A model generated the notes under the pieces. That model made no database searches. It saw only the letters and a program-made list of their open reading frames with translations, and had not been told where the DNA came from. DNA of 64,000 bases from positions 1 to 64,000 of IMG/VR virus record IMGVR_UViG_3300012924_000007; one strand, written 5' to 3'. Within the stretch, counting starts at the first letter, position 1, and every line of letters begins with the position of its first letter. Shown here one piece after another: positions 816 to 42,260 of this stretch. This DNA comes from a virus. Both the position numbers and the translations under genes were made by a program.

Positions 816-965
816 ATGAGAACAATAAACTATATTTTAGAATTTTATTACAATAGCAATTATCACTGTAAAGCAGTAGAAACCGAAAAAGAGGCTATTT
901 TATGGGTTCCCTTGCTTGAAAAAATGGGTTATTATAATATAACCTTTAGATTTCTAAAAGACTAG
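816..965 (+). CDS. hypothetical small protein, 49 aa
   Basis: Short ORF (MRTINYILEFYYN...RFLKD) with an ATG at 816 and a TAG at 963-965. It has the standard local leader AAATCTAATTATT before its ATG. It is rich in Tyr and contains an EKEAI segment followed by WVPLLEKMGYY, typical of compact phage proteins. Its stop codon lies inside the 5' arm of helix I of the hammerhead-like RNA (960-1011), so translation termination and RNA folding could interfere. Function unknown. Confidence 0.55.
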   Translation: MRTINYILEFYYNSNYHCKAVETEKEAILWVPLLEKMGYYNITFRFLKD

Positions 966-1011
966 CCGATGAGCTGTAAGTCAGCGAAACACGGGAAACC
1001 GTGTCCTAGTC
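960..1011 (+). ncRNA. hammerhead-ribozyme-like self-cleaving RNA (type I layout)
   Basis: All three hammerhead helices and the core can be drawn. Helix I is GACTAG 960-965 with CTAGTC 1006-1011. The core is CCGATGA 966-972. Helix II is GCTG 973-976 with CAGC 982-985 (loop TAAGT). GAA 986-988 follows. Helix III is ACACGG 989-994 with CCGTGT 999-1004, closed by a GAAA tetraloop. The cleavable residue is C1005, so cleavage would fall between 1005 and 1006. The only departure from the canonical CUGAUGA...GAAA...NUH core is C instead of U at core position 4, which would be expected to slow cleavage. Helices II and III are closed and helix I is open, which is the type I arrangement. I infer that cleavage would create the 5' end of the long structured RNA that follows. 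Confidence 0.7.
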
Positions 1012-1746
1012 AACACTGGTAAAAGATCAGTTAATCGTGACAAATAAATGACAAAAATTATTAGGTTTAGAATAGTATTAGTTTTACCTTAGTATCGTGA
1101 TCCTGAAACAGACAATGTACCTTACTAAGTACAGGAACAGAAACCGGATCAAACGTGTGAAAGGTTGAAATCACTGAATTGTGGTTAACGTCGCTGAAAT
1201 TACAGTAAGCGCCCAAACTATGTGCATCATGGTCTGAATGTTACCAGTAAGTAACGAAGGCAAGTATCTGAGCCTATGTAACAAGGATACCCGAAGCAGT
1301 AAATTGCATTATATCACGTTCGGAAAGGTAGCAGGGGATAGACTCCCTGTGACAAGGCACACATTCAACGTGTCTTAATAATACAGTTTATTACATTCGG
1401 GTATATTATGTATTTTTACATCTGATAACGCAAAGATACCGTTATATCCGGATTATTCCAAATAAGATATTACGACAATTATATAGGTATGGAGGTTTAG
1501 CGATCCATCAAATGTAAGTTATTGACGACTGTTACAGCCTAAATAATTGTCTATTAATGCACCATTCTCAGAGGTATAAACAATCCTCCTGATTAATAGA
1601 CAGCCTCAACTTAAAATGTTAGAAAGGGATATTAATCAGCCTCCCAAGGGTGAGCTATGTAATAGGTGCAACAAGTATTGCTCAATTCCTTTATCCAGGA
1701 GCAGGAGCCTATTACATAGTGTGCAGAGGGATTATATTATTAATAT
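1006..1746 (+). ncRNA. large structured non-coding RNA (about 740 nt), unidentified class
   Basis: No convincing ORF covers this stretch, but it is full of perfect complementary arms. TGATCC/GGATCA (1098-1103, 1146-1151) encloses TGTAC/GTACA (1116-1120, 1129-1133). Others are GTTAC/GTAAC (1240-1244, 1251-1255), a 9-bp long-range stem ATACCCGAA/TTCGGGTAT (1287-1295, 1396-1404) enclosing CAGGG/CCCTG (1332-1336, 1345-1349) and AAGGCAC/GTGTCTT (1354-1360, 1370-1376), and ATAACG/CGTTAT (1425-1430, 1440-1445). An 11-bp stem pairs 1548-1558 with 1592-1602. A 12-bp stem CTATGTAATAGG/CCTATTACATAG (1655-1666, 1708-1719) sits inside ATATTAAT/ATTAATAT (1629-1636, 1739-1746). Size and phage setting recall giant phage RNAs such as GOLLD or ROOL, but I cannot assign it to either. 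The 5' boundary is the predicted hammerhead cleavage site. Confidence 0.7.
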
Positions 1747-1761
1747 TTTAAATTTATTGTT

Positions 1762-2064
1762 ATGGATGCAAAAAATTGGTTAAGTACGATTGAACAAAAC
1801 TTGTTTGATTTGGTTGAACAATTCAGTAATACAGAGGGAACAAAGTTTGATGTAATAAATGTTAGTGATGAAGTAGAGGAAGCTCAACAGATAAAAAAAT
1901 TAAGGGTTTATCACAGAGAAGGATATTGTTTCGAGGTATGTAAAGGGCCAGTTTATGATGATAAGGGAGCAATATGTAATTGGGAATATGGTTTTCTTAC
2001 TCACTGGGACGGCTTCGATAATAATTTCACAGAACAAGAAGCTATTAATTTATTAAAATTGTAA
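1762..2064 (+). CDS. hypothetical acidic protein, 100 aa
   Basis: First gene after the large structured RNA. It is acidic and soluble, with a Trp/Gly/Phe-rich C-terminal half (NWEYGFLTHWDGFDNNF) and no transmembrane segment. I do not recognise it. It is followed by about 160 nt with only short open frames. Confidence 0.65.
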   Translation: MDAKNWLSTIEQNLFDLVEQFSNTEGTKFDVINVSDEVEEAQQIKKLRVYHREGYCFEVCKGPVYDDKGAICNWEYGFLTHWDGFDNNFTEQEAINLLKL

Positions 2065-11482: not shown

Positions 11483-11628
11483 AAACATTATTATTTGTAG
11501 CAATAGTGCTATTTACCGCTTGTAAAGCAACACAAAAAGTTACTAGCTCCGAAAAGAAACCAGCTAGAGTACAAGTGAGACAATTAGATGGCACATATCA
11601 AGGATATTATATTAGAATAATAGAATAA
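11479..11628 (+). CDS. small lipoprotein, 49 aa
   Basis: ATG 11479 overlaps the preceding stop (ATGA). The N-terminus MKTLLFVAIVLFTACKATQK is a lipoprotein signal with a lipobox (FTAC) placing the lipidated Cys at residue 15. The mature part of about 35 residues is basic. A phage lipoprotein expressed early could act in superinfection exclusion, but nothing in the sequence proves that. Confidence 0.7.
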   Translation: MKTLLFVAIVLFTACKATQKVTSSEKKPARVQVRQLDGTYQGYYIRIIE

Positions 11629-15316: not shown

Positions 15317-17260
15317 GTGAACGAATATTTAAATTATGTATTCATTGAGAAACAGGAGGAACTGGATCAGGTGCAAATTACTGATTTGTATGTAGGCATC
15401 GACCTAGAAACAACTAGGAAATATGAGAAGTATGGAGAAATGGAAGGACTTGACCCATATACATCAAAACCAGTGATGATCCAGTTAGGAACATTATCAA
15501 AGCAGTATATTATAGATGCTCGAAAAGTAGACCCTAAAGCCCTCCTCAAGAAACTGAATAAGAAAGTAATTTGGGTAGGACATAATTTGAAATTTGAATA
15601 CAAACACCTTCTACATAATTATGGAGTACGGTTAGAGAGAGTGTATGATACAATGATAGTATATCAAATTAATCATTGCGGATTAGATAAAAACGCATCA
15701 TTAGCTGGCGTAGCAAAAGAATGTTGTGATATCATAGTTCCAAAGGATGTAAGATTGAGTTTCTTATCAATACGCGATCTTCCTTTCATTAAAGAGCAGA
15801 TAGAGTATGGAGCAAAGGATATCATAGTTCCTTTTCTGATTAAATCTAAACTTGACTATCTAACTGAGAAAAACGATTTAGGGGAGACAGTCAAGTTAGA
15901 AATGGAATTCCTTAAAGTGTTGGGGGATATTGAGTATAAAGGAATGGCTTTTGATCCAAAGAGGTGGAAAGAAGTAGCAGCTAAAAATCAGGTAAAGTTT
16001 AATTCTTTACAGCAAAAGTTGAACAGGTTTGTAATAGAAAGTGATCATGTAAAGTTCTTTAAAAAACAGATGGATTTATTCTCCGCTGAAATAAAGGTTA
16101 GTATATCTTGGACCTCCTCCAGGCAAGTAATTAAATATTTTAAGTATTTAGGCTTTTGCCCACAGGCAGTTTCCAAAACAACTAAAAAACTAGCCTATAC
16201 TGTAGATAAGAAAGAACTTAGTAAATATCATGGTCAATACAAAGAGCTAGTAAGCATATACCTGGAGTTTAAAGAAGCGGAACAGGCAGTAACCACGTTT
16301 GGAGAGGATTTTTTGAAGTATATACACCCAATAACTGGCAGAATACACTCAGACTACCGGCAGATACTCAATACGGGGCGTATTTCCTCCAACAACCCCA
16401 ATCTACAGAATATACCAGCGGATGATCACAGAGAAGCATTTATAGCCCCAAAAGGCTTTAAACTGGCAAATGCTGACTATTCGGGGCAAGAGCAGATAAT
16501 ACTAGCTAACAAATCAAAGGATAAGGATCTTCTGTTTTTCTATAAGAATGGTTTGGGAGACATGCACAGCTTTGTTGCATCAAAGATATTTGAAGAACTC
16601 AAGGAATTGAGTTTAGCAGAAGTTAAAGAAAATCACTCAGAAGAAAGGCAAACCGCAAAGGCTGCTGGTTTTGCTATTAACTACGGCGGTGTAGGGAAGA
16701 CAATTGCTAATAATTTAGGTATAAGTATAGAAGAAGGAGATAGAGTATATAGTGCATATTTTAAAGCCTTTCCAGGACTGGGTAAGTATTTTAGTAAGGC
16801 AAAAAAACTGGCCCTATCACAACCATATATTTTTATCGATTCAGTTACAAAGAGAAAGAGTTGGTTTAAGAAATATCCTCTGATAGAGGAGTTAAAGAAT
16901 AAAGCTGCTAATTGGGTAGCAAGTGTAGAGGATGAGAAGAATCCGCATTGGTCAGCATATTTTAAATTGAAGAGTAAACTGGAAAGAAATGGACTCAATT
17001 ATCCAATTCAGGGGGAGGCTGGCAGTATCACTAAGAAAGCTGCTGTGTTATTTAGAGAATGGTTATTAATGGAAGGGTTGGAAGATGATATATACTTAAC
17101 AAATCTAGTTCATGATGAAATTAATGCTGAAACAGTTGAAGACATGGCAATAAATGCAAAAGGAGAGTTAGAGCGGTGTATGAAGGAGGCCGGGGATATA
17201 TGGTGTAAAATTGTCCCATTAAATGCAGAAGCAAAGATCGTAAATTATTGGTCACATTAA
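15317..17260 (+). CDS. polA: DNA polymerase I, family A, with 3'-5' exonuclease
   Basis: A 647-residue replicative polymerase. The N-terminal DnaQ-like exonuclease shows YVGIDLETT (Exo I, residues about 26-34), WVGHNLKFEYKHL (Exo II) and EYGAKDIIVPFLI (Exo III). The polymerase domain shows motif A as NADYSGQEQIILA, motif B as RQTAKAAGFAINYGG, and motif C as LVHDEINAE. These supply the metal-binding acids and the O-helix. No 5'-nuclease domain is present, as expected for phage family A enzymes. The start is GTG at 15317, directly after the preceding stop; the nearby ATG is out of frame. It lies upstream of the DnaB-type helicase gene. Confidence 0.95.
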   Translation: MNEYLNYVFIEKQEELDQVQITDLYVGIDLETTRKYEKYGEMEGLDPYTSKPVMIQLGTLSKQYIIDARKVDPKALLKKLNKKVIWVGHNLKFEYKHLLHNYGVRLERVYDTMIVYQINHCGLDKNASLAGVAKECCDIIVPKDVRLSFLSIRDLPFIKEQIEYGAKDIIVPFLIKSKLDYLTEKNDLGETVKLEMEFLKVLGDIEYKGMAFDPKRWKEVAAKNQVKFNSLQQKLNRFVIESDHVKFFKKQMDLFSAEIKVSISWTSSRQVIKYFKYLGFCPQAVSKTTKKLAYTVDKKELSKYHGQYKELVSIYLEFKEAEQAVTTFGEDFLKYIHPITGRIHSDYRQILNTGRISSNNPNLQNIPADDHREAFIAPKGFKLANADYSGQEQIILANKSKDKDLLFFYKNGLGDMHSFVASKIFEELKELSLAEVKENHSEERQTAKAAGFAINYGGVGKTIANNLGISIEEGDRVYSAYFKAFPGLGKYFSKAKKLALSQPYIFIDSVTKRKSWFKKYPLIEELKNKAANWVASVEDEKNPHWSAYFKLKSKLERNGLNYPIQGEAGSITKKAAVLFREWLLMEGLEDDIYLTNLVHDEINAETVEDMAINAKGELERCMKEAGDIWCKIVPLNAEAKIVNYWSH

Positions 17261-42103: not shown

Positions 42104-42174
42104 ACCAGTATAGTATAATGGCAATACGTCAGATTTTGACTCTGAATATCCTCGATCATTACGAGGTGCTGGTT
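42104..42174 (+). tRNA. tRNA-Gln (anticodon TTG)
   Basis: Full cloverleaf of 71 nt. Acceptor ACCAGTA/TGCTGGT (one G-T pair), D stem GTAT/ATAC, anticodon stem TCAGA/TCTGA with loop TTTTGAC (anticodon TTG reads CAA), T stem CCTCG/CGAGG. The T loop ATCATTA deviates from TTCRANN. CCA is not encoded. Confidence 0.85.
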
Positions 42175-42184
42175 CAACTAATAT

Positions 42185-42255
42185 ACGGGTATAGTTTAAT
42201 GGTAGAACAAATCTCTCCAAAAGATTTAGTCGAGGTCCGATTCCTTGTATCCGTG
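42185..42255 (+). tRNA. tRNA-Trp (anticodon CCA)
   Basis: Cloverleaf of 71 nt. Acceptor ACGGGTA/TATCCGT, D stem GTTT/GAAC, anticodon stem AATCT/AGATT with loop CTCCAAA (anticodon CCA reads TGG), T stem CGAGG/CCTTG with loop TCCGATT, discriminator G. CCA is not encoded. The anticodon reads the standard Trp codon, so it gives no sign of stop-codon recoding. Confidence 0.88.
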
Positions 42256-42260
42256 CTTAA

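Follow-up and report, generated by a model that had tools for sequence, protein, structure and literature searches.

Type I hammerhead ribozymes occur in phages and prophages (Perreault et al., 2011, PMC3088659) and are covered in Rfam by the Hammerhead_1 (RF00163), HH9 (RF02275), and RAGATH-1 (RF03152) models. They are built from three helices around the CUGAUGA, GAA, and NUH elements, have an open helix I, and are located between phage genes with several copies per operon. Clustered prophage copies, including the triple arrangements in A. tumefaciens and others (PMC3088659, Figure 3), lie between short phage genes, and a function in cutting polycistronic RNA has been proposed for them. For the core position that is normally U4, a viroid hammerhead with a U4C change was reported to have a lowered rate in vitro and to support infectivity (Ambros and Flores, 1998, as cited in PMC3088659 and PMC4075628). 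When MS2 with an inserted hammerhead escaped, the mutations hit other core positions and never U4, and the G5A form was dead (PMC4075628).

The window analyzed here is a stretch of 64,000 nt comprising positions 1 to 64,000 of the IMG/VR virus record IMGVR_UViG_3300012924_000007. An earlier note on this DNA had proposed a hammerhead at 960-1011 with 6-bp helices I and III, a 4-bp helix II, the GAA element, and a GAAA tetraloop. All of these were confirmed base by base (Table 1), and the minimum free energy fold of positions 955-1016 was the hammerhead itself (−19.9 kcal/mol, z −4.6, with none of 200 shuffles as good). Both the fold and the covariance model described below gave a three-way junction of helices I, II, and III with an open-ended helix I, which defines a type I hammerhead. 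The proposed span holds for the helices and was extended here, since the conserved A959 and A1012-A1013 also belong to the motif. When the element was compared with the core C3 U4 G5 A6 N7 G8 A9 / G12 A13 A14 / A15.1-U16.1 / H17, every position matched except position 4, where C967 stands in place of U, as had been claimed. The hammerhead scheme, with C1005 at position 17, also leads to the cleavage site predicted earlier.

Table 1. Features of the hammerhead locus (window coordinates)
Feature	Position	Strand	Basis
Upstream ORF, 49 aa, no known family; stop codon within helix I	816-965	+	
Type I hammerhead ribozyme, C4 (U4C) core, with flanking A959 and A1012-A1013	958-1014	+	Covariance model, fold
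5′ strand of helix I, GACUAG, paired to 1006-1011; includes UAG (963-965), where the upstream ORF stops	960-965	+	
Core CCGAUGA (C966 C967 G968 A969 U970 G971 A972); C967 is position 4 (consensus U)	966-972	+	
Helix II, 4 bp, GCUG (973-976) / CAGC (982-985); loop UAAGU (977-981)	973-985	+	Fold, subfamily loop UNANU
Core GAA, G986 A987 A988 (G12 A13 A14)	986-988	+	Sequence
Helix III, 6 bp, ACACGG (989-994) / CCGUGU (999-1004); GAAA tetraloop (995-998)	989-1004	+	Fold
A15.1-U16.1 (A989-U1004)	989, 1004	+	Fold
C17 (C1005); predicted cleavage site between 1005 and 1006	1005-1006	+	Position in the hammerhead scheme (inferred)
3′ strand of helix I, CUAGUC, 6 bp with 960-965	1006-1011	+	Fold
ORF-poor stretch, about 750 nt, in the same direction as the ribozyme; candidate for a long leader or a noncoding RNA	1012-1761	+	
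Strongly structured branched hairpin in the ORF-poor stretch	1287-1408	+	Fold of 1280-1412
Next clear ORF, 100 aa, no known family	1762-2064	+	

A covariance model was constructed from 24 U4 phage hammerheads, with the window sequence left out. This U4-only model scored the window element at 59.5 bits (E = 2.5e-13), which was its sole match in the 82.6-kb record. No second hammerhead was found in the window or the remaining record with this model, and a relaxed scan gave only chance-like matches with two core mismatches. A reversed control sequence of 2.87 Mb contained no comparable three-helix motif with one core mismatch or fewer, in agreement with the low chance expectation stated in the earlier note. 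At their curated thresholds, the Rfam models reported nothing at this element. With a lowered threshold, Rfam HH9 reached 18.9 bits (E 0.16) at the window element, below its curated score of 52 bits. The U4 members of the same subfamily were likewise missed at the curated thresholds, with RAGATH-1, Hammerhead_1, and HH9 as the nearest models, all below threshold. For other ribozymes, the Rfam search of 780-2240 at E up to 10 gave no credible match.

Relatives were collected by scanning IMG/VR with C4-core patterns, and the U4 form of the same pattern returned 110 stretches, most of them real. Among the matches listed, the working set comprised 101 distinct hammerheads (85 U4 and 16 C4). In 73 of these, that of the window included, helix I was 6 bp long and helix II with its loop measured 13 nt. 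An A was present directly before and directly after helix I in all 73 members of this subfamily, the end pair of helix I was G-C in 71, and loop II followed the form U-N-A-N-U, with U in the first position in 73, A in the third in 67, and U in the fifth in 68. Fixing helix I at 6 bp makes its ends unpaired by construction but does not require an A on both sides, and the signature is therefore informative. The window element has it in full, with A959, GACUAG/CUAGUC, A1012-A1013, the 4-bp helix II, and the loop UAAGU. A count of covarying pairs on alignment A1 was discarded as evidence because it was circular, the sequences having been picked for pairing.

The genomic context was counted for 94 members, using upstream ORFs of at least 45 codons and random positions of the same loci as the control. 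The stop of the upstream ORF lay within 20 nt of helix I in 86 of the 94, and a downstream ORF started within 60 nt in 82; both held for 80% of the members versus 7% of the random positions. Several contigs carried arrays, with 14 hammerheads in L228, 10 in L133, five each in L253 and L086, and four in L072. In L228 (IMGVR_UViG_3300030382_001968, 22 kb), the 14 copies occupy nearly every gene boundary between 2290 and 8610, and one of them is C4. The window element fits the upstream-stop rule, its UAG being located at +3 inside helix I, and departs from the downstream-start rule, as no start is found within 60 nt and the next clear ORF begins at 1762. Unlike the array-bearing contigs, the window phage record has a single hammerhead. 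A location in an early operon is plausible, since small ORFs follow one another in the same direction ahead of the replication genes. No close relative of the window phage was found by INPHARED blastn of 900-1800 or by a DNA polymerase search in IMG/VR. By tblastn, the DNA polymerase at 15317-17260 came nearest to those of Leptolyngbya phage Lbo-JY46 and of crAss-like phages, at 28-38% identity, and genes for tRNA-Gln (ttg) and tRNA-Trp (cca) are adjacent at 42104-42256.

After duplicates and two chance-like cases were removed, C4 hammerheads with three intact helices were found in at least 17 phage contigs besides the window, and most of these also had the peripheral signature. One scan yielded L013 and a second L013, L016, L018, and L022, while the others, among the matches listed, came from a scan with different first pairs of helix I; the C4 copy of L139 came to light in a locus retrieved because of a U4 hammerhead. 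The C4 candidates L300 and L304, which have a 4-bp helix III and a long loop, were judged to be chance. The 94 distinct strict-layout members found by the model comprised 79 U4, 13 C4, two register shifts, and no other core, and this C4 share is not a frequency estimate, since most C4 cases were ascertained by C4-specific scans. The two shifted cases, with GATGNGT cores, are out of register through the alignment and are not variants. When the same pattern and the same helix filter were applied to each core, 51 U4, four C4, no A4 or G4, one G5A, and no G8-substituted distinct hammerheads were obtained; thus, C4 was commoner than the other single core changes tested, with four versus one being a small sample. 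The G5A case (L321, on the same contig as L105, IMGVR_UViG_3300025889_000591, 11511-11556) belongs to the CCCG subfamily, has intact helices, and is probably a dead copy.

The C4 form also recurs at corresponding places. In L253 and L302, a C4 copy is located at the same place behind homologous genes, with upstream proteins that are 80% and 72% identical. L217 and L234 have C4 copies with different helix sequences before a homologous gene (53% identical, with one intervening gene in L217). Arrays mixing C4 and U4 copies were found in L228, L253, L284, and L139. A scan of bacterial genomes with the C4 pattern gave 20 matches, none with three good ungapped helices. One genome, a Clostridia MAG from goat rectum (L038/L046), held two copies of a C4 motif in which an internal loop apparently interrupts helix I; it was weakly hammerhead-like at 27.6 bits.

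Two alternative readings concern the nature of the element. A chance or otherwise structured RNA that merely resembles a hammerhead three-way junction would find its support in the Rfam scores below threshold. However, Rfam fails equally on U4 members of the subfamily, and the E value of the covariance search, the empty reversed control, and the peripheral signature of the window element make such a look-alike extremely improbable. Sequence and structure thus support the hammerhead identity, as does homology with a phage subfamily. The earlier note had also asked whether the C4 ribozyme was slow, compensated, or recently inactivated, the last meaning that the helices are intact only because the decay is recent. 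U4C is a transition at a position that is normally U, it lowers activity in vitro as mentioned in PMC3088659, and the G5A copy with intact helices indicates that decayed copies exist and can be detected. Against this stand the presence of C4 in so many other contigs, the single other core mutant against four C4 in the matched comparison, the retention of C4 in the two syntenic phages L253 and L302, and the U4 copies held by C4-bearing phages, which argue against a wholesale loss of function. Recent inactivation is therefore improbable and has become the least likely of the three answers. The sequence comparisons and the published viroid and MS2 results speak for a variant that is tolerated and probably active rather than for a newly broken copy. 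With the other phage contigs and the viroid ribozyme described as active in PMC3088659 as precedents, C4 counts as a known tolerated exception to the core.

A further alternative, compatible with an mRNA-cutting hammerhead, refines that reading: instead of separating two mRNAs, the ribozyme would mainly serve to generate the 5′ terminus of a large, structured noncoding RNA spanning 1006 to about 1750. The region 857-1761 lacks ORFs of 60 aa or more and is the largest such gap in the + strand operon, the runner-up being 383 nt. The ORF-poor region folds better than its shuffles (z −3.9 over 788 nt), mainly through 1280-1412, which alone reached −40.1 kcal/mol (z −5.35, 0 of 200 shuffles), with bounds picked after a sliding scan. 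No terminator-like site was found in 1012-1761. On the other side, this stretch had no homologs (Rfam, INPHARED blastn of 900-1800, and the fetched loci), and the 1280-1412 element had no Rfam match; it contains small ORFs (46 and 55 aa), and ordinary genes follow most other members of the subfamily. The noncoding-RNA role is a tentative but serious possibility. Imperfect direct repeats (AGGAGCAGGAGCCTA and GATTATATTATTAAT) are located at 1697-1744, with partners about 395 nt further on at 2092-2140, each shortly before an ORF.

We conclude that the window element is probably a genuine type I hammerhead of a gene-boundary phage subfamily that cuts operon RNA at the stop of the upstream gene. 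Its structure, subfamily signature, and gene-boundary position and the recurrence of C4 are established at the level of sequence, and cleavage in the cell would be expected from them. On transcription of the phage operon, the hammerhead would fold where the upstream gene stops and cut the RNA between C1005 and C1006. The upstream mRNA would retain its stop codon and end in two hairpins (helices II and III), and the downstream RNA would begin with CUAGUC carrying a 5′-OH, this product presumably being a structured leader or noncoding RNA. Putative contacts of loop II with the A-flanked end of helix I may offset the C4 core, possibly at a slower rate. A ribosome terminating on the upstream ORF would occupy helix I together with the core, which may put translation in competition with folding.

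The most likely function of the subfamily is to cut polycistronic phage RNA at gene ends, and its association with an upstream stop and the next leader suggests this simple role for phage hammerheads. It is conceivable, although rather unlikely, that some DNA phages process an entire operon into monocistronic transcripts by means of hammerheads at almost all stop codons, that U4C is a selected rate setting instead of a defect, and that the window phage employs this device to produce the 5′ terminus of an undescribed, structured noncoding RNA about 750 nt long. The recurrence of C4 means that a core position long treated as almost fixed varies naturally in DNA phages, which is relevant to structure-function work on U4. 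It also matters for ribozyme searches, as fixed-core searches and Rfam thresholds miss such hammerheads.

Compared with known systems, the element is a known kind of ribozyme with a recurrent core variant. The viroid hammerhead shares its single core change, reported in PMC3088659 and PMC4075628 as sufficiently active in vivo, and differs in belonging to a rolling-circle RNA, whereas the window element is located at a gene boundary in a DNA phage. U4C was previously known from the viroid, and in the literature searched its recurrence in DNA phages is not described. The phage and prophage hammerheads of PMC3088659 share the three helices around the common core elements, the open helix I, the location between phage genes, and the occurrence of several copies per operon. 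In contrast to them, the window element has C at position 4, a helix I without an internal loop and of exactly 6 bp between unpaired A residues, and a loop II of the form UNANU. With the clustered prophage hammerheads, the subfamily shares the placement between short phage genes and the proposed cutting of polycistronic RNA; its arrays, however, comprise 10-14 copies per contig (L133 and L228), while the single copy of the window phage precedes an ORF-poor stretch.
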